Of a stretch of 43,803 bases of DNA, positions 1-43,803 are shown one piece after another. Origin of the DNA: a virus; IMG/VR virus record IMGVR_UViG_3300036846_000748, positions 1 through 43,803 of that record. The stretch is one strand, 5' to 3'. The position numbers and the translations under genes are program-made. How positions within the stretch are numbered: the first letter of the stretch is position 1; each line of letters begins with the position of its first letter. Below the pieces are notes generated by a model, which was not told the DNA's origin, ran no database searches, and worked only from the letters and a program-made list of their open reading frames with translations.

Positions 1-462
1 CGCGGGACCGGTGGTGGGCTGGTGGCGCAGTACGAGCGCGAGCAACAACCCGAGGATGTCGAGCTTAACGAAAAGGGCCAGATGCAGCGCGCTAACGGTA
101 ACGTGCTGTTACCTACCGCCTACCACTACGTGATCATCGTAGATCCGGAGTCCGAAGACGTCGAGCGCGCGGTGTTGCCGATGTCGTCCACGCAGCTCAA
201 GAAGTCTAAGAAGTGGAACTCCGTAATGGGCGCCATTAAGCTCCGCGACGACGAGGGCGAGCTGTTCACGCCGCCCAGCTACTCGCATAGTTACGAGCTG
301 AGTACCGCGGGCGAGAGTAACGAAAAGGGCAAGTGGTTCGGGTGGGTCATAGGCGGGGTCGAGCTGGTGAACGACCCTAAGCTGGTCCGCCTAGCCCATG
401 AATTTAGTAAATCCGCACGCAGCATCTCGTTGAAGCCGTCTGAAGATGAAAACTTAATGTAA
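1..462 (+). CDS. ssDNA-binding-like conserved phage protein, C-terminal part (gene cut by contig end)
   Basis: The frame is open from base 1, so this is the C-terminal 153 residues of a protein whose first 93 residues lie at 43397-43675; joined it is 246 aa. The full product resembles a conserved podovirus protein of the replication module, with the features DLAIPFLNILQ, a VIPC...WRPR segment, an STQLKK segment and KGKWFGW. I recall relatives annotated as single-stranded DNA-binding or recombination-associated proteins, but I see no OB-fold signature that proves this. The position directly before primase and helicase fits a replication role. A GTG at 22 is not a real start. It ends 17 bases before the primase start, in the same operon. 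Confidence 0.75.
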   Translation, partial: RGTGGGLVAQYEREQQPEDVELNEKGQMQRANGNVLLPTAYHYVIIVDPESEDVERAVLPMSSTQLKKSKKWNSVMGAIKLRDDEGELFTPPSYSHSYELSTAGESNEKGKWFGWVIGGVELVNDPKLVRLAHEFSKSARSISLKPSEDENLM

Positions 463-3308: not shown

Positions 3309-3620
3309 ATGCCAAAGGGAGTCAAGGTCGTAATCAGAAAACCCATGGAGGAAGAGCCCGAGGAAGAGGACGTGCGCCCATCTCGGATCGAGCGTCCTAG
3401 CTTCACGGATATTAAACAGCCCCGCTTGAAGAAATTCAAGGCCAACGCGGTGATTCATCTTCTGGTGAAGGAAAATCCTAAGCGCGCGGGCAGCGGCTCG
3501 CACCGGCGCTATGGCCTCTACACTAACGGCATGACCGTTGAAGAGGCACTAGAGGAGGGCATCACCGCCGCCGATCTGGACTACGATAACAAGAAGGAGT
3601 TTATCCGTATTGTAGCATAA
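3309..3620 (+). CDS. Small NPKR-motif phage protein (paralogue A)
   Basis: 103 aa, function unknown. The N-terminal half is charged (EEEPEEED). The C-terminal half has the pattern VIHLLVKENPKRAGS...RRYGLY..GMTVEEAL..GIT..DL.YD...FI.I, which I recognise as a widespread small phage protein family with no assigned role. Two other copies occur here, at 37625-37930 and 39215-39610, sharing the I.L......NPKR.G, (A)Y/RY.LY and TV..Y/AL core. The start is supported by AAAGGAGAG eight or so bases upstream and by promoter P1. It stands at the head of the modification gene run. Confidence 0.8.
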   Translation: MPKGVKVVIRKPMEEEPEEEDVRPSRIERPSFTDIKQPRLKKFKANAVIHLLVKENPKRAGSGSHRRYGLYTNGMTVEEALEEGITAADLDYDNKKEFIRIVA

Positions 3621-3698
3621 GTTTCACCCCACCCCCACCGGAAAGCCGCGGCACTAGGCTTGACACTCTGGAGAGACAGAGAAGAGGTATCGCGGAAG

Positions 3699-4478
3699 AT
3701 GCTGAAACGTATTTACATCACCACCTATAAGCGCGCCACCGACCAACGCACCTGGCACCGGCTAAGTCCTAAACTTCAGAAAGAAACCGTGCTCTCCGTG
3801 GACTGGGAGGAGCGCGATCTTTACCCAGGCTACCCCATCGAGGTGCTACCGGAGGGCCTTCATCGGCTTAACGCTAAGCGCCAGTACATTCTACAAACCG
3901 CGCCCGCTACCGAGATCGTGCTACTCGACGACGATCTGCAGTTTTACACCCGCAAGCAGCCCGGAGACTGGCACCTTAGAGACTCGACTCTAGAAGACAC
4001 CGACCAGATGTTCGCCACGGTGTTCAAGGAGCTGGCCGGAGACTTTGCCCATGTAGGGATTAGCGCGCGCGAAGGAAACAATACCGTAGAGACGGACGAG
4101 GCCTATAATGGGCGCATGATGCGACTATTGGGTTATCATCTGCCCACGCTGCGCGCGGTATGCACTTTCCCGCTGGTAGACTGCATGGAGGACTTCCACC
4201 TGACGCTACAGCTGCTGACCCACGGTATATCTAACTGTGTCCATTACGGCTGGGCCCAAGGTCAGAAGAACTCTAACGCCCCGGGAGGCTGTTCGACCTA
4301 CCGCACCTTAGAGTACCAGGAGGAGCGCGCTAAAGAGCTAGCCACGCTGTTCCCCGACTACGTCAAGCTGGTCCGTAAGACCACCAAGACCGCCTGGGGT
4401 GGTGGCGAGCGTACCGACGTGCGGGTTTCCTGGAAAAAAGCCTACGAAGCCGGCAAGCGGGAGCGGGACAAATGCTAG
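3699..4478 (+). CDS. GT-A fold glycosyltransferase, TET-associated (TAGT)-like
   Basis: 259 aa from the ATG at 3699; the frame extends to a TTG at 3660, but the residues there are atypical and the ATG begins the typical MLKRIYITTYKRATDQ core. It has the GT-A layout: an N-terminal strand with T-x-KR, an RLNAKRQYIL helix, then EIVLLDDDLQF with the acidic DDD (D77-D79) expected to bind metal and nucleotide sugar. A later VDCMEDFHLTLQLL segment resembles the acceptor or catalytic half. Such enzymes, described by Iyer, Aravind and colleagues with base-modification operons, are thought to put sugars on hydroxymethylated bases in phage DNA. The next gene starts 7 bases before its end. Donor and acceptor are unknown. 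Confidence 0.65.
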   Translation: MLKRIYITTYKRATDQRTWHRLSPKLQKETVLSVDWEERDLYPGYPIEVLPEGLHRLNAKRQYILQTAPATEIVLLDDDLQFYTRKQPGDWHLRDSTLEDTDQMFATVFKELAGDFAHVGISAREGNNTVETDEAYNGRMMRLLGYHLPTLRAVCTFPLVDCMEDFHLTLQLLTHGISNCVHYGWAQGQKNSNAPGGCSTYRTLEYQEERAKELATLFPDYVKLVRKTTKTAWGGGERTDVRVSWKKAYEAGKRERDKC

Positions 4479-5302
4479 ACTTCTGGTCCTTTGTAAACGA
4501 GCGCCACGCGATTTATCTTAAGCGCCAGGCCGGAGCGCAGCCGCCCTGGACCGAGCACCGCGCTTTACAGGAGAACTACTTTTGCAACGTATTCCGCGAG
4601 CTGGACACCACCACTATATGGTACGCCGGTAATATAAGAAAACCCCTGGAAAATCGGCAAGAAATTTTTATGGCCACCGTGATTTTCCGTTGGTTTAATT
4701 TTATCGAAACTGGCCGGACTTTGCTAGAGCACGGGCTGCTGACCGACTGGTCGTCCAAGCGTGCCCAGGACGCGCTGCGGGGCAGAATTAAATACGTCAC
4801 CGGCGCATACATGATTAAGACCCCCACCGGAATGGATAAACTCCACGGCGTGTGTTGGGCGATCGACCAGATGTGGCCCCAGCGTAAGGCGCTATTTGCG
4901 CAGATGAACGGTCAAAGTCTAGAGGCAGCGTGGCGGGTGCTACTGCCCTTTCCGTTCATGGGGCCGTTCATGGCGTACGAAGTCATCACCGACTTGCGCC
5001 ATACCTATATGTTGCGCGAGGCACCGGATATTATGAGCTGGGCCAATATCGGGCCGGGAGCTCGGCGTGGGTTAGACGCAATAGCCGCCGAGGGCTGCAG
5101 CCCGGATAAGTTAGGACTAGACTACATGAAATTTTTGCTGAGCCAGTCTACCGATAAGCGGGTATGGCACTACGCTAAAGACTGGCCGATGGAAATGAGG
5201 GACATTGAGCACGCTGAATGCGAATACAGCAAGTACCGGCGAGCTTGCAACGGTGAGCGTTTAAAAAGGAAATATCATGGAACTGCTCGTGAGAAACGTT
5301 AA
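4472..5302 (+). CDS. Thymine hypermodification protein (HMUDK-helical / aGPT-pyrophosphorylase superfamily)
   Basis: 276 aa, all-helical and related to DNA glycosylases. Family hallmarks: FWSFVNERHAIYLKR at the N terminus, then PPWTEHRALQENYFCNVFRELD, PFPFMGPFMAYEVITDLRHT, the WANIGPGARRGL turn, and EMRDIEHAECEYSKYRR near the C terminus. These fit the superfamily that includes the helical domain of 5-hydroxymethyl-dU DNA kinases and the alpha-glutamyl/putrescinyl-thymine pyrophosphorylases. Some members replace the pyrophosphate of an activated thymine with an amine or amino acid. There is no P-loop in this protein, so the kinase half is absent. It sits between a glycosyltransferase and a thymidylate-synthase homologue, overlapping both. 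I cannot choose between the two subfamilies by eye. Confidence 0.72.
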   Translation: MLDFWSFVNERHAIYLKRQAGAQPPWTEHRALQENYFCNVFRELDTTTIWYAGNIRKPLENRQEIFMATVIFRWFNFIETGRTLLEHGLLTDWSSKRAQDALRGRIKYVTGAYMIKTPTGMDKLHGVCWAIDQMWPQRKALFAQMNGQSLEAAWRVLLPFPFMGPFMAYEVITDLRHTYMLREAPDIMSWANIGPGARRGLDAIAAEGCSPDKLGLDYMKFLLSQSTDKRVWHYAKDWPMEMRDIEHAECEYSKYRRACNGERLKRKYHGTAREKR

Positions 5303-6236
5303 CGAAGCCTACGTCCACGGCATGACGCTACTCCACAACAGCGGGGTGCGCGAGCCGAGCCGCAACGGCGACGTGCTAGTATGTCCGTTTCCGGTGATGA
5401 CGGTCTATCTACAACCCACCGAGCGGATCCTCTTTCATACTGGGCGGGACGCTAATCCGTGGTTCCACCTAATGGAAGCCATGTGGATGTTGCTAGGTCG
5501 GGACGACGTGAAATTCGTAAGCTATTACAATAAACGCATGCTCGAATATAGCGATGACGGCGTACATCTGAACGGAGCTTACGGCCACCGTTGGCGTCAC
5601 ATGCTCGGCATCGATCAACTAGAAACGGCGGTTCAGCTTTTACGCGCCGAGCCCACTACGCGGCGCGCGGTCATTGAGATGTGGGGGGTGTATGATCTAT
5701 GGTCCAAAGATGTTCCGTGCAACACGCACATCTATTTACGGATCTTCAACGGGCGGTTAGACCTGACCGTGCTGTGCCGTTCTAACGATATAATCTGGGG
5801 CGCTTATGGCGCCAACGCGGTACACTTCTCGGTGCTGCAGGAATACTTGGCGGCGCAGTTGGGGGTGCCGGTAGGGCGGATGTATCAGTTCAGTAATAAC
5901 TACCATGCCTATGTAGATCTGTTCAATAAGAAGTGGGATAGTCTGAGTCTCATTGGTATGACTTATTCAGACCTGCACGCTACTCCAATAGTGACGGACG
6001 CACCTACATTCTTGGACGAACTGGAGGAAACTATAGCAGTCATAGAAGATCTAGATTACGGGAAGATTCAGATATCTAATGCAAAGAACCCATTTATGTA
6101 CACGCTACTGGCAATGGGAGAATCTTGGTGGGACTATAAACGCGGCGATCTCAAGTCGGCTATCGTGAGAGCTAACCAGATACCCGCACCAGAGTGGCGC
6201 ATAGCTTGTTTACAGTGGTTATATAGGAGGAACTAA
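5277..6236 (+). CDS. Thymidylate synthase homologue, candidate dUMP hydroxymethylase
   Basis: 319 aa. The catalytic cysteine is in DVPCNTH (C148). The phosphate/folate region is CRSNDIIWGAYGAN (R168, S169, D171, N180), followed by FSVLQEYLAAQLGVPVG and the SNNYHAYVDLF end of the core (H210, Y212). The asparagine near 180 suggests a uracil rather than a cytosine substrate. Ordinary thymidylate synthases transfer a methyl group; phage relatives make 5-hydroxymethyl-dUMP for base replacement. Placement right after two DNA hypermodification genes favours the latter, but sequence alone does not settle it. The ATG has AAGGA six bases upstream and the gene overlaps the previous one by 26 bases. The last 300 bases are more AT-rich than the core. 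Confidence 0.85.
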   Translation: MELLVRNVNEAYVHGMTLLHNSGVREPSRNGDVLVCPFPVMTVYLQPTERILFHTGRDANPWFHLMEAMWMLLGRDDVKFVSYYNKRMLEYSDDGVHLNGAYGHRWRHMLGIDQLETAVQLLRAEPTTRRAVIEMWGVYDLWSKDVPCNTHIYLRIFNGRLDLTVLCRSNDIIWGAYGANAVHFSVLQEYLAAQLGVPVGRMYQFSNNYHAYVDLFNKKWDSLSLIGMTYSDLHATPIVTDAPTFLDELEETIAVIEDLDYGKIQISNAKNPFMYTLLAMGESWWDYKRGDLKSAIVRANQIPAPEWRIACLQWLYRRN

Positions 6237-35824: not shown

Positions 35825-35831
35825 GGAGGGA

Positions 35832-35860
35832 GCTATACTCCGGGGTGCGCTCTAAGTAAA
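35832..35860 (-). promoter_or_regulatory. Promoter P2, late structural operon, leaderless
   Basis: On the minus strand -35 TTTACT (35860-35855), 17-base spacer and -10 TATAGC (35837-35832). The terminase small subunit ATG begins eight bases after the -10 end. It is back to back with P3, and GTAAAGC/GCTTTAC around the two -35 boxes forms a perfect seven-base inverted repeat, so one factor could control both. Confidence 0.68.
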
Positions 35861-35869
35861 GCTCGGCGC

Positions 35870-35898
35870 TTTACCTGCGGGCGGGGGTAGGCTATAAT
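35870..35898 (+). promoter_or_regulatory. Promoter P3, rightward small-gene operon
   Basis: -35 TTTACC (35870-35875), 17-base spacer containing GCGGGGGTAG, and a perfect TATAAT (35893-35898). The ribosome site TAGGAGGT and the ATG at 35920 follow. The whole region resembles promoter P5 (42156-42184), which shares GCTTTAC, TGCGG and GCGGGGGTAG in the same order. Confidence 0.72.
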
Positions 35899-35919
35899 AT
35901 ATATAGGAGGTAAGGGTAG

Positions 35920-36357: not shown

Positions 36358-36975
36358 ATGAAGATCCCACGACCCATGGGACCAGCCGAGTATGAGGCGC
36401 GCCTTGGGCGGCTGGTCGAATGCTACCGGGCGCGCATGGAACAGCTCGACCAGCCGAGGCTGCGCGCCGGTAAACAGCGGTTCCCTAAAATCTGGGACGT
36501 CCTAAGGGCAATGGGCCCGCTCACCGCGCGCGAGGCCTGTATCCTGGGCGGCGCGGGCGATCTGCCGGACGGGCGCTACGGCCCGCTCCTGCACCACCTA
36601 GAAGTCAACGGCTGGGCCGCCAAACACGACCAGATCTGGCAGGTGTGGAACACCCGCGGGCATCCGGTGCGGCATCCGGTCTGGCGGTTCGTAGCCGCAC
36701 CGGACGGCTCCAGGGCGCGCAAGCGCATAGCCCTCGACGAGTTCAACGCCGCCGTCGCGCGGCTCGAGCTGGGGCGCGGCACCGCGCTCTGCCTAACGCG
36801 GCGCATAGCCCACGGAGCTAAGGAGCAGAAATGGCAACATCAAGGAAAGACCCAGCGGAACCAGGAGATCGTCCGGAGGCGGTTAGCGGGGGAGAGTCTG
36901 AGCGATCTGGGCGCGGAGCACGGCATCAGCCGCGAGCGCACGCGACAGATCGTAGAGCGGGCGGTAAGAAGGTGA
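36358..36975 (+). CDS. Sigma-70 region 4-like DNA-binding protein
   Basis: 205 aa, basic. The C-terminal 40 residues, NQEIVRRRLAGESLSDLGAEHGISRERTRQIVERAVRR, match the region 4 helix-turn-helix of sigma70 factors (L.DLG...GISRER.RQI...A), which contacts the -35 element. Residues 45-115 may be a second helical or winged domain (IWDVLRAMGPLTAREACILGGAGDLPDGRYGPLLHHLEVNGW). No region 2 for -10 recognition is visible, so it is not a full sigma factor. It may be a phage activator that redirects host polymerase, possibly to the TTTACT promoters (inference). Confidence 0.7.
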   Translation: MKIPRPMGPAEYEARLGRLVECYRARMEQLDQPRLRAGKQRFPKIWDVLRAMGPLTAREACILGGAGDLPDGRYGPLLHHLEVNGWAAKHDQIWQVWNTRGHPVRHPVWRFVAAPDGSRARKRIALDEFNAAVARLELGRGTALCLTRRIAHGAKEQKWQHQGKTQRNQEIVRRRLAGESLSDLGAEHGISRERTRQIVERAVRR

Positions 36976-37172: not shown

Positions 37173-37275
37173 TAGACTCCGTATAGCTGCTATGGGAAGG
37201 GGGAGGAGACTAGGGAATTTCGTGAAGGGTTCCCCGCCATTGGGCGACAGCCAATAGATCTTTAGGGGTCGGGCC
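37173..37275. other. Non-coding spacer before the CTAG array
   Basis: No gene is seen. Short inverted repeats (ATTGG/CCAAT at about 37238-37254, GGGAA/TTCCC at about 37214-37235) could fold, but none has a T run. Base composition here is ordinary; the unusual composition starts at about 37265. Confidence 0.5.
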
Positions 37276-37541
37276 TAGCTAGTTAGCTATAAAGCTACCC
37301 CCCTCCTTTGCTAGCGGGCTACATAGCTAGTTAGCTATAAACCCTGGAACATAGCTAGTTAGCTAGTTAGCCTGCCCGCTAGGCGATAACTAGCTAGTTA
37401 GCTAGGTAACTAGGCCGCTAGGCGATAACTAGCTAGTTAGCTAGGTAACTACGCCGCTAGGCCGCTATTTAATATATACGCGTATTAGCGTAACCGCTAG
37501 TTAGTAGCTAGCTAGTTAGCTAGGTAACTACGCCGCTAGCC
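37276..37541. repeat. TAGCTAGTTAGCTA array with 39-base tandem units
   Basis: TAGCTAGTTAGCTA occurs in direct orientation at 37276, 37324, 37352, 37391, 37430 and 37509. Units 37376-37414 and 37415-37453 are tandem 39-base copies differing at one base, and 37509-37539 matches part of the unit again. The motif is rich in CTAG and nearly palindromic. It could be a protein-binding array, a partition or packaging signal, or part of an origin. Confidence 0.9.
37505..37522. repeat. 18-base inverted repeat, left arm
   Basis: TAGCTAGCTAGTTAGCTA here is the exact reverse complement of 37924-37941. The two arms bracket the gene at 37625-37930 at a distance of about 400 bases. Confidence 0.9.
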
Positions 37542-37624
37542 AGCTTAATAGCTATAGAAATTATTTTAGCAGGGAGGAAAATAAACTATAGCCTTTAGGC
37601 CCCGCTATAGGTAATATACTAAGT

Positions 37625-37930
37625 ATGGTTAATAAAAACCTAACTAAAGCAGGCGCGGCTAAAACCGCGCCTAAAACCTTAGCCCTTAACCCGGTACCGG
37701 TAGCGCCTATTACGTACCCGGTAACGGCGGTTATACGCCTAACCCCTAAGGGCGCGGCGTTTAACCCTAAGCGGCCCGGTACGGCGGCCTACGCCCTTTA
37801 CGCGGCTTACGGTAAGGGCGGCCTTACGGTAGGCGCGTACCTGGCCGCCGCGGCGCGTACCGCGCGGCCTAAGGCGGGGCGGGTAGCTATAGCGTGGGAC
37901 GTAGCGCGCGGCTATATAACGGTTAGCTAA
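37625..37930 (+). CDS. NPKR-motif phage protein (paralogue B), extreme codon bias
   Basis: 101 aa, very close in pattern to paralogue C at 39215-39610: AVIRLT..G....NPKR.G..AY..Y..Y.KG....TV..Y..A..T.R.KAGR.AIAWD.ARGYITV. The N-terminal 30 residues are basic and proline/alanine-rich. Because GA, CA, TC and TG steps are avoided, the protein has no Glu, His, Gln or Cys and only one Asp and one Ser. No Shine-Dalgarno lies near the ATG; a TATACT ends four bases upstream, so a leaderless start is possible. The stop codon lies in the right inverted-repeat arm. Function unknown. Confidence 0.75.
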   Translation: MVNKNLTKAGAAKTAPKTLALNPVPVAPITYPVTAVIRLTPKGAAFNPKRPGTAAYALYAAYGKGGLTVGAYLAAAARTARPKAGRVAIAWDVARGYITVS

Positions 37931-37941
37931 CTAGCTAGCTA
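37924..37941. repeat. 18-base inverted repeat, right arm
   Basis: TAGCTAACTAGCTAGCTA, the exact reverse complement of 37505-37522. It contains the stop codon of the paralogue B gene and runs up to the terminator. Confidence 0.9.
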
Positions 37942-37945
37942 AGCT

Positions 37946-37986
37946 AAGCGGTTAGGGTTAAGCGCCCTAGCCGCTTTTATTTTTTA
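37946..37986 (+). terminator. Strong intrinsic terminator
   Basis: AAGCGGTTAGGG (37946-37957) pairs with CCCTAGCCGCTT (37965-37976) over twelve positions with one G-T wobble and a seven-base loop, followed by TTATTTTTTA. This is a textbook rho-independent terminator for rightward transcription, placed 15 bases after the paralogue B gene. Confidence 0.88.
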
Positions 37987-38049
37987 CCGTAAACTAGCTA
38001 AGTAGCTAGTTAGCCTGCTAGCTATCCTGCCAGAACATGGCCTGCGTGC

Positions 38050-39214: not shown

Positions 39215-39610
39215 CTATTTCCCAGCAGGCGCGACCGTAATGTAACCCCGCGCTAGGTCCCAGGCGATGGCGGCACGGCCCGCTTTGGATCTCTCCGTAG
39301 TCCCCACCGCATCCACATACTCCCGCACCGTCATGCCTTTAGCCCCCTTTTGATAGAGCTCGTACATCCGGTAGGCTACCGCCCCGCCGCGTTTGGGGTT
39401 GCCCTTAGCGCCCACCTCCGTAAGCCGGATTACATCGGTATCCGCATATTTGGCTACCCGCCGCACTGGCGCTTTCTCTGCCACCTTATCCGGTGCCTTG
39501 ACCACCGGCTTAGCTATTGCCTTGCCTTTAGCCTTGACGACGTCGAGAGACATCTTCAAGCTGTCCGCTACCGTTGGGGCCTCTGCCGCCTTCTTCTGTG
39601 TCTGTGCCAT
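39215..39610 (-). CDS. NPKR-motif phage protein (paralogue C) with basic N-terminal tail
   Basis: 131 aa. Residues 1-55 are a Lys/Ala/Pro/Val-rich tail reminiscent of histone H1-like tails (VKAKGKAIAKPVVKAPDKVAEKAPVRRVAK). Residues 58-125 are the NPKR domain, with VIRLTEVGAKGNPKRGG, AYRMYELYQKG, MTVREYVDA and RSKAGRAAIAWDLARGYITV. The basic tail suggests nucleic acid binding. Codon use is ordinary, unlike paralogue B. AGAGGT precedes the start. Confidence 0.75.
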   Translation of the reverse strand: MAQTQKKAAEAPTVADSLKMSLDVVKAKGKAIAKPVVKAPDKVAEKAPVRRVAKYADTDVIRLTEVGAKGNPKRGGAVAYRMYELYQKGAKGMTVREYVDAVGTTERSKAGRAAIAWDLARGYITVAPAGK

Positions 39611-39629
39611 TATAGCACCTCTATAGGAG

Positions 39630-39652
39630 CCTACCCCTTACGTGGGGTTAGG
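39630..39652. other. Hairpin in the leader of paralogue C
   Basis: CCTACCCC and GGGGTTAGG pair over eight bases with a one-base bulge around TTACGT, about 20 bases before the paralogue C start. It may protect or attenuate the transcript. The rest of the 105-base gap 39611-39715 shows only a weak TATAGT (-10-like) with no clear -35. Confidence 0.5.
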
Positions 39653-39715
39653 ACTTATCCTTTAACTACTATAGCCTACCGGCTCGCCCAAAACTAGCCT
39701 ACTTTCGCCGCTATT

Positions 39716-42184: not shown

Positions 42185-42231
42185 GCCCCGATTTACGCCA
42201 ATGTTATCCATGTTTAGCTGTTTAACGCCAT

Positions 42232-42244
42232 GGTTAATTTAACC
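42232..42244. promoter_or_regulatory. Operator-like palindrome at promoter P4
   Basis: GGTTAATTTAACC is a perfect dyad with a one-base centre, ending three bases before the P4 -35. A TTAAC/GTTAA pair just upstream overlaps it. The 120-base region between P5 and the first rightward gene holds nothing else I can name. Confidence 0.5.
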
Positions 42245-42246
42245 GC

Positions 42247-42305: not shown

Positions 42306-42824
42306 ATGGAAGACGCGGATCTAAATCGGATACGGCAGGCGGTGTTCCAACTCATCAACATTCAGTCGGCGGAGGAAAAAGCTATCGACGCATTGACTAA
42401 GATTACGCAGGAGTTGCATAAGCTCGAGTTCGAGATCATACCGGAGCTGATGCACGAACTAGGGGTGCAGAAGATCGTACTGGACGACAGCATTAACCTG
42501 GAGGTCAAGCCGTTCTACCGCGCGGCGATCCCCGTAGAGCGGCGCAACGAGGCGTTTGACTGGCTGCGCGCTAACGGCTTTGGGGATCTGATTAAGCGCG
42601 AAATCAGCGTAAAGTTCCCGCGCGGGCAGGATGACGCGGCTACCGCCCTGATCCGTGCCATCGTGGAGCAGGGCTGGGCCTACCAGGATAGCGAGCAGGT
42701 TAACAAGTCTACGCTAGGCGCTTGGCTGCGCGAGCAGTTCGAGCGCGGCAACGCTAACCTGCCGTTAGAGAAATTGGGCGGGTTCATCGGTGAACGGTGT
42801 GTTCTAAAAATCAAGGGAGAATAA
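42306..42824 (+). CDS. Conserved phage replication-module protein of unknown function
   Basis: 172 aa. The N-terminal half is helical (LNRIRQAVFQLINIQSAEEKAIDALTKITQELHKLEFEIIPELMHELG). The second half has PFYRAAIPVERRNEAFDWLRANGFGDLIKREISVKFPRGQDD and STLGAWLREQFERGN, a pattern I recognise from podovirus replication modules beside the ssDNA-binding-like gene, without a known activity. Start supported by GGGAGAG. Followed by a GGGAGAATAAAATGA ribosome cassette that recurs after the methyltransferase gene. Confidence 0.7.
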   Translation: MEDADLNRIRQAVFQLINIQSAEEKAIDALTKITQELHKLEFEIIPELMHELGVQKIVLDDSINLEVKPFYRAAIPVERRNEAFDWLRANGFGDLIKREISVKFPRGQDDAATALIRAIVEQGWAYQDSEQVNKSTLGAWLREQFERGNANLPLEKLGGFIGERCVLKIKGE

Positions 42825-42829
42825 AATGA
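42815..42829. repeat. Ribosome-site direct repeat, copy 1
   Basis: GGGAGAATAAAATGA carries the Shine-Dalgarno and ATG of the methyltransferase gene. An identical 15-mer lies at 43371-43385 and a close variant at 43387-43400, so the methyltransferase gene is bracketed by them. Confidence 0.9.
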
Positions 42830-43380
42830 GTGCCACCAACCGAGGGCTAGAGAGAATGCCCTTAGATGATTATCCAACACCGGATTGGCTAATCAACGCG
42901 ATAGTGCCGCTGCTAGAGACACTCGCTCCTCAGACTATCTTGGAGCCAGCCTGTGGCAGTGACCAAGCCATCGTTAAGATATTGAAGAGAGCTTTTCCCA
43001 AGGCCGAAGTAGTGGCATCGGATATCGTGCCTCCGTGGAATTGTGATTTCTTAACCATGGAGCCTGACCCAATATTCGATGTGATAATCAGTAACCCGCC
43101 ATTCTATGTTTCCGAACAGTTCATACGCCATGCAATGGGGTTTCGGAGAAATAGGGAGCGCTCTAGTGTCATAATGCTTAATCGGATAAATTTCTTGGGC
43201 AGTAAAGCCCGAGCCAAGTGGCTAAGAGAGTGGCCGCCTTCCATATACGTCACTCCCCGTAGGCCATCTTTTGGTCTCAACAAGCACGGTAAGCCAGGAA
43301 CCGACGCAACGGAGTTTGCTTGGATGTGTTGGAACGACCAACCGTCCTCGGTGAATATTTTAGACACAGAGGGAGAATAA
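42826..43380 (+). CDS. SAM-dependent DNA adenine-type methyltransferase
   Basis: 184 aa. YPTPDWLINAIVPLL is the usual entry, motif I is ILEPACGSDQAI, VVASDI follows, and the catalytic motif IV is FDVIISNPPF. These are class I methyltransferase motifs with the NPPF of N6-adenine (or related) enzymes. No target recognition domain is apparent, so specificity is unknown. It may protect phage DNA from restriction or mark it. Codon use is more AT-rich than both neighbours, and short direct repeats flank it, suggesting later insertion. Confidence 0.82.
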   Translation: MSATNRGLERMPLDDYPTPDWLINAIVPLLETLAPQTILEPACGSDQAIVKILKRAFPKAEVVASDIVPPWNCDFLTMEPDPIFDVIISNPPFYVSEQFIRHAMGFRRNRERSSVIMLNRINFLGSKARAKWLREWPPSIYVTPRRPSFGLNKHGKPGTDATEFAWMCWNDQPSSVNILDTEGE

Positions 43381-43385
43381 AATGA
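43371..43385. repeat. Ribosome-site direct repeat, copy 2
   Basis: GGGAGAATAAAATGA, identical to 42815-42829. Directly after it, GGAGAATAAGATGA (43387-43400) gives a second ribosome site and ATG, so the next gene has two possible starts, 43382 and 43397. Confidence 0.9.
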
Positions 43386-43396
43386 AGGAGAATAAG

Positions 43397-43803
43397 ATGA
43401 AAGAGCTCGTGAAGAAAGTATCGCATCTACCCAGCACCCTGAGTCTGTTCAAAGAACACGCGGGTGGCGGTATGGAGAACATGACCACCGCCGATCTGGC
43501 TATTCCGTTCCTGAATATCCTGCAGACGAATAGCCCGCAGCTGTCCCGTGCCGAGTCTAACTACGTCAAAGGCGCGGTGGCGGGGCAAATCTTCAATTCG
43601 GTGTCTACCAAAGTCTGTGACAAAATGCGCGTCATCCCGTGCGCTTTTCAGCATAAGGTCGTAGAGTGGCGTCCGCGCGGGACCGGTGGTGGGCTGGTGG
43701 CGCAGTACGAGCGCGAGCAACAACCCGAGGATGTCGAGCTTAACGAAAAGGGCCAGATGCAGCGCGCTAACGGTAACGTGCTGTTACCTACCGCCTACCA
43801 CCG
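43397..43803 (+). CDS. ssDNA-binding-like conserved phage protein, N-terminal part (gene cut by contig end)
   Basis: The frame continues past the contig end into base 1. From ATG 43397 (AAGGAG six bases upstream) the joined product is 246 aa; from ATG 43382 it is 251 aa. The part seen here includes TTADLAIPFLNILQTNSPQLSRAE, a short SVSTKVCDKMRVIPCAFQHKVVEW segment and the GTGGGLVAQY join. Same protein as described at 1-462. Bases after 43675 repeat the contig start, and the last two bases do not match it. Confidence 0.75.
   Translation, partial: MKELVKKVSHLPSTLSLFKEHAGGGMENMTTADLAIPFLNILQTNSPQLSRAESNYVKGAVAGQIFNSVSTKVCDKMRVIPCAFQHKVVEWRPRGTGGGLVAQYEREQQPEDVELNEKGQMQRANGNVLLPTAYH
43676..43803. 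repeat. Contig terminal redundancy
   Basis: Bases 43676-43801 are identical to 1-126; 43802-43803 (CG) differ from 127-128 (TA). The redundancy falls inside one gene and restores its frame, so it is most simply an assembly overlap of a circular or circularly permuted genome. It is probably not the phage's own direct terminal repeat. Confidence 0.9.

Follow-up and report, generated by a model that had tools for sequence, protein, structure and literature searches.

A small gene and its terminator occupy a TpS-free island in a phage with a predicted thymine hypermodification pathway, and similar islands recur in kinase-bearing phage contigs

In the window analysed here (the whole 43,803-nucleotide stretch of virus record IMGVR_UViG_3300036846_000748), a segment of 757 bases at positions 37260-38016 (no strand assigned), which contains upstream repeats, one small gene (gene B) and the terminator of that gene, is almost devoid of thymine followed by guanine or cytosine. 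Only 20 CA, GA, TC and TG steps were found in this segment against about 175 expected (binomial p = 1.9e-58), confirming a depletion that is real and far beyond chance. Since CA is TG and GA is TC when read on the opposite strand, the four missing steps make up one rule of the double strand, namely that neither strand has T before G or C (TpS). The type of kinase that this virus encodes targets TpS, so that the virus's own pathway should fail to modify the island. We consider it probable that the island is a transcription unit under selection to escape modification, so that the host RNA polymerase can read it on hypermodified DNA. What we observed directly is the avoidance of TpS, the match of all six islands to a gene with its terminator, and the reappearance of such islands in phages that bear the kinase; from these we infer the role in transcription.

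An earlier note on this DNA had placed the island at 37265-38025; the island is real, and its edges were refined to about 37260 or 37275 on the left and 38016 on the right. Dinucleotide odds ratios, which the note had proposed as a check, were CA 0.10, GA 0.14, TC 0.04, TG 0.15 and TA 2.82 in 37265-38025, whereas all five were near 1 over the whole window. The genome-wide ratios of the four depleted steps were 0.89-0.96, the depletion being limited to the 757 bases, and the rate of forbidden steps was 23% genome-wide as compared with 20 in 757 bases in this maximal segment. When only the boundaries between A/T and G/C were counted, which takes out the effect of base composition, 19 of 231 boundaries in the island were of the forbidden type, where half would be expected. 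In a scan of the window the TpS rule scored 130, and the best of the other strand-symmetric pairings of dinucleotide classes scored 19; islands of the opposite polarity were absent from 165 records (maximum score 9.8). The two strands were purged of TpS equally, and the constraint therefore seems to lie on the double helix and not on the template strand alone. As to the cause, the avoidance of many restriction or modification motifs suggested earlier was right in kind, but a single dinucleotide, the target of the virus's own predicted pathway, suffices, and the avoidance of many restriction sites was dropped.

Gene B (37625-37930, + strand) encodes a small domain of the NPKR type of 101 amino acids and retains five kinase sites, as compared with 53.3 +- 5.1 when synonymous codons for this protein are drawn at random and with a minimum possible of three, a floor imposed by the protein at its start Met, Trp91 and Asp92. 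The dinucleotide counts reported earlier for this gene (TC 0, GA 1, CA 1, TG 3) were exactly reproduced, and the purging was as strong in coding sequences as in the non-coding DNA of the islands. A weak candidate promoter (37593-37620, + strand; CTTTAGG, 15 nt, TATACT), recognised by consensus match only, is free of TpS, and downstream an intrinsic terminator (37946-37985, + strand) has a 12-bp stem and eight T; the island stops 31 bases past this T-run. The region 5' of the gene is occupied by an array of TAGCTAGTTAGCTAG and GTAACTACGCCGCTAGG units (37276-37546, no strand assigned). The TAGCTAGTTAGCTAG array is iteron-like and itself poor in TpS. Two paralogues of gene B in the same genome follow the ordinary grammar, as had been claimed: in both paralogue A (3309-3620, + strand), which adjoins the modification genes, and paralogue C (39215-39610, - strand; 79 kinase sites against 83 expected), TpS stands at the random expectation for synonymous coding.

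By its head-tail connector (PF12236) and its DNA polymerase A, the window virus belongs to a short-tailed type of phage, and three genes for a putative modification pathway stand in a row on its + strand. These are a TET-associated glycosyltransferase (3660-4478; PF20691, phrog_842), a 5-hmdU DNA kinase (4472-5302; PF18723, E 2.7e-45) and a thymidylate synthase homologue (5277-6236; PF00303, phrog_5131), which we presume to be a dUMP hydroxymethylase, although the sequence families matched here do not separate hydroxymethylase from synthase. The kinase is 33% identical to that of phage M6, which is among 92 phage records with homologues of it; a profile scan for the kinase found 192, and a scan with the single sequence found none. 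5-hmdU DNA kinases of phages start thymine hypermodification, and their published target is TpS (PMC6449724, PMC7653180): in M6, ViI and phiW-14 the modified thymines sit in TG or TC, written 'TS' (PMC6449724), and the TpS context was confirmed with SP8 DNA treated with 5hmdU DNA kinase (PMC7653180). By analogy the window kinase would share the TpS specificity of its relatives, and the thymines of this virus are probably decorated chemically where T precedes G or C.

The earlier note had also called for a search for segments with the same depletion, and five further phage contigs were found to have one, giving six TpS-free islands in uncultivated phage contigs (the window, L003, L118, L119, L198 and L259). 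A scan of 3.65 Mb, mainly kinase-bearing contigs and phages, gave four of these (L118 5795-6397, L119 8232-8889, L198 7681-8148 and L259 1521-2009); note that the scanned set was picked by the presence of the kinase and that several of its contigs are fragments. The kinase gene is present in the window and in these four contigs. The L003 contig, a close relative of the window, is a 6.7-kb fragment too short to show a kinase.

The orthologue of gene B in L003 encodes a protein with 70% identity, and has three violations of the rule in 433 bases, all at the start ATG (Met1), a Trp codon and an Asp codon; the Trp-Asp pair did not vary in an alignment of the four closest homologues. Between gene B and its L003 orthologue there are 87 nucleotide differences, with 26 codons changed synonymously, and 87 random substitutions would make about 49 violations. 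The avoidance of TpS has thus been maintained over a long divergence. This comparison bears on the idea that the island is an assembly artefact or recently acquired foreign DNA. Its abrupt edges and its repeats would fit such an origin, but six separate contigs obey the same rule, the L003 orthologue keeps it over the 87 differences, and the grammar has no codon for seven amino acids (D, E, H, Q, C, W and M), so that no genome can have it. We regard this explanation as hardly conceivable; the foreign replicon of the earlier note is excluded by this logic, and an assembly error was dropped in view of the six contigs.

The genes of L118 and L119 break the rule only once, at the start ATG, and so stand at the floor, as compared with 55-61 violations under random coding. 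Nine sites are left in the gene of L198, on reading apparently in Asp, Glu and His codons of HNAERH...ADIKYD...E, and eleven in that of L259, most of them at the start codon and in Ser, His and Asp codons and a few elsewhere. The leftover TpS, mostly at the start codon or at conserved residues, looks like the outcome of selection on both DNA and protein. In the TpS-free gene of L198 (7733-7990, - strand), ATG, GTG and TTG are all absent in frame and an AGGGG run precedes an ATT codon, which suggests that this gene may start at ATT, a change that would do away with the last TpS site that cannot be avoided. In three other kinase contigs, genes of the same family are flanked by stretches with a weaker TpS depletion (L117 11552-11754 and 10898-10978, L135 4716-4827 and L153 17997-18088), and these are possibly intermediate states.

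An ordinary-grammar paralogue lies near the island gene in the window (paralogue C), L118, L119, L198 and L259. The existence of such neighbours is informative about mutational erosion, in which the modified base or its repair would mutate TpS away. A mutator of a single dinucleotide would make no distinction between coding and non-coding DNA, as observed. It should, however, act genome-wide, yet the neighbouring paralogues and other genes keep normal TpS, and each of the six separate islands matches a gene and its terminator. The mutational process proposed in the earlier note is accordingly very unlikely, to the point that we give erosion scant credence, and cytosine deamination and other mutational processes were dropped, the paralogues being spared.

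In each of the six islands a single gene, about 77-110 codons long, precedes an intrinsic terminator; the island ends 8-31 bases past the T-run of the terminator in four of them and 119 bases past it in two. Candidate -35 boxes of the CTTTACT type with TA-rich -10 boxes are present upstream in five of the six, the window having the weak candidate only. This arrangement, with one gene and an end just past its terminator in every case, speaks against a replication origin, packaging site or recombination site kept unmodified with a coincidental gene. The iteron-like repeats upstream of gene B and the terminase genes a few genes away from the window island favour a site of this kind. The repeats are, however, not common to L003, and coding DNA is purged as strongly as non-coding DNA, so that we judge it very improbable. 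In fact, a repeat array of the window type was absent from the L003 island and from the other islands read, and the exact DNA pattern of the window repeats had no match in the viral contigs.

The preferred reading, that the islands are transcription units kept unmodifiable, draws on an experiment in vitro, in which a template with phosphorylated 5hmU gave with E. coli RNA polymerase 10% of the output of a 5hmU template and 37% of that of natural DNA (PMC6457204). On this basis the TpS-free unit would, most simply, remain open to the host polymerase on fully modified DNA. By analogy, the final hypermodified base would also hinder the host polymerase, and this hindrance would be the selective force. 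With no kinase target on either strand, the whole unit would stay unmodified while the rest of the genome is hypermodified; the host RNA polymerase could then still read it on incoming, fully modified virion DNA, and the small protein would be made first or at all times. Its product might be an early regulator, possibly binding DNA. The window yielded no recognisable phage RNA polymerase, an absence of little weight since the control for the family matched nowhere. The block of transcription cannot be absolute, because most of the genome is modifiable yet must be transcribed. A block of elongation alone would predict stronger purging of the template strand, and the equal purging of both strands counts against it.

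A reading that we hold tentatively goes further. Some phages with hypermodified thymine would carry one dedicated 'unmodifiable' ignition gene, free of TpS from promoter to terminator, which starts infection through the host RNA polymerase and whose product licenses transcription of the modified genome. As part of the same tentative reading, the reduced alphabet would go so far that most of the protein does without seven amino acids, and in one case the ATG start has apparently been replaced.

The equal purging of the strands over the whole unit would also fit the protection of double-stranded DNA from a host nuclease that depends on modification, the gene encoding a counter-defence protein on DNA without the recognised modified bases, and small early phage genes are often counter-defence genes. 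Against this, cutting of the remaining genome would be lethal all the same and leave ends exposed, known families were unmatched, and the matches in a defence library were only weak and below threshold. We consider the nuclease explanation rather improbable.

The proteins of the window and L003 belong to a small-domain family with the motif NPKR ... W-D ... G-Y-I, and those of L198, L153, L135 and others to a family with HNAERH ... IKYD ... GFIT. The NPKR (A4) and HNAER (A5) profiles, for proteins of the window type and of the L198/L259 type, matched in hhalign with a probability of 97% (E 1.2e-10); by this profile comparison the two sets are related and form one small-domain family. The TpS-free proteins of L118 and L119 reached hhalign probabilities of only 53% against HNAER and 13% against NPKR. 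Iterated profile searches collected 48 distinct NPKR/HNAER members from the scanned DNA but none from the controls, and the homologue in L004 has ordinary grammar. The gene B protein had no match in viral contigs or named phages in a single-protein search and no Pfam or PHROGs match, paralogues C and A had none in named phages, and a profile scan of bacterial and archaeal genomes gave no relatives of the domain. In its AlphaFold model (mean pLDDT 81) a helical core lies between short strands. The model showed no significant fold match to the PDB or to viral models, and as regards a winged-helix DNA-binding fold the PDB matches were non-significant (best E 2.1); that the protein binds DNA is a guess.

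Larger proteins with an NPKR-type domain at the C-terminus are encoded in six contigs (L063 9257-9952, L076 8396-9313, L030 3928-4734, L015 4207-4671, L036 8885-9706 and L026 7535-8338), and in these six the genes lie near the 5-hmdU kinase, often directly beside it. The position of these domain relatives beside the kinase would be expected if the product regulated the modification machinery or acted together with it, and if feedback required the gene or its operators to stay unmodified, as an autoregulated unit, and the repeat array of the window could serve as the operator. That array is, however, missing from the other islands read, control through an operator needs no purging of an entire coding region and terminator, and the same genomes have ordinary paralogues. 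Such feedback is unlikely in our view, and a unit kept readable by the host polymerase remains the preferred explanation.

Depletion of TpS extends in a lesser degree to other promoters of the window lineage, which also lean away from TpS. A divergent promoter region (35825-35919, no strand assigned) has 8 of 32 boundaries of the forbidden type, with promoters of the type GCTTTAC(C/T)-17-TATAAT on both strands, and the intergenic region upstream of paralogue C (39611-39715, - strand) has 9 of 40. Among the kinase phages generally, TpS depletion of promoters was no stronger than in the control phages and only the window lineage stands out, so that a general depletion of promoters across kinase phages was not supported. 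The promoter form GCTTTAC(T/C)-17-TATAAT is common to related phages, and palindromes of the AGTAAAGnnCTTTACT type overlap divergent -35 boxes at 35855-35875, 42185-42246 and 30534 of the window and at 1277-1289 of L004. Upstream of the island, 36358-36975 encodes a protein of 205 amino acids with a match to sigma-70 region 4, a possible transcription factor. Pam3-like genes gp34 and gp33, together with a methyltransferase-like fragment, occupy the two ends of the window (1-462 and 42306-43803), an arrangement that suggests a permuted or an incomplete genome.

No TpS island was found in 0.79 Mb of kinase-free phage DNA (SPO1, T4, phiKZ, lambda, T7, N4, HTVC010P, MW202510 and BUCT708, in all of which the absence of the kinase was checked). 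M6, ViI and phiW-14 were among ten kinase phages from culture that were scanned whole or largely, and these ten likewise had no island, so that the island is a trait of some lineages and not needed by all hypermodified phages. Genes free of TpS in this way were not described in the literature searched, which covered few subscription papers.

The thymidine hypermodification of M6, ViI and phiW-14 involves the kinase family encoded in the window and TpS, the dinucleotide that is depleted in the island (PMC6449724, PMC7653180), but these phages were without a TpS-free gene both in our scan and in the literature searched. The on/off switch of Vanikova 2019, in which the 5-HMU DNA kinase shuts down E. 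coli RNA polymerase in vitro (PMC6457204), is an effect that a TpS-free unit would evade; it is a test-tube system with a Pveg template, and a natural resistant gene is not described there. The islands address the question of how a phage starts transcription from DNA with bulky groups on its bases. A gene that avoids the modification of its own phage would be a direct genomic record of this start-up problem and would mark the gene expressed first, and an uncharacterised family of small proteins is thereby linked to hypermodified phages. Such a gene also lets the sequence context of the modifying enzyme be read from the genome alone, as a test free of culture. In restriction-site avoidance, the 4-6 base sites of a host enzyme are lost genome-wide; selection strips short motifs from phage DNA in both cases, whereas the window case concerns one transcription unit, a dinucleotide and the phage's own enzyme. 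The CpG islands of vertebrates are unmodified stretches permissive for transcription in an otherwise modified genome. They are, however, rich in the target and kept unmodified, whereas the window island is without the target and its coding sequence has been purged as well.
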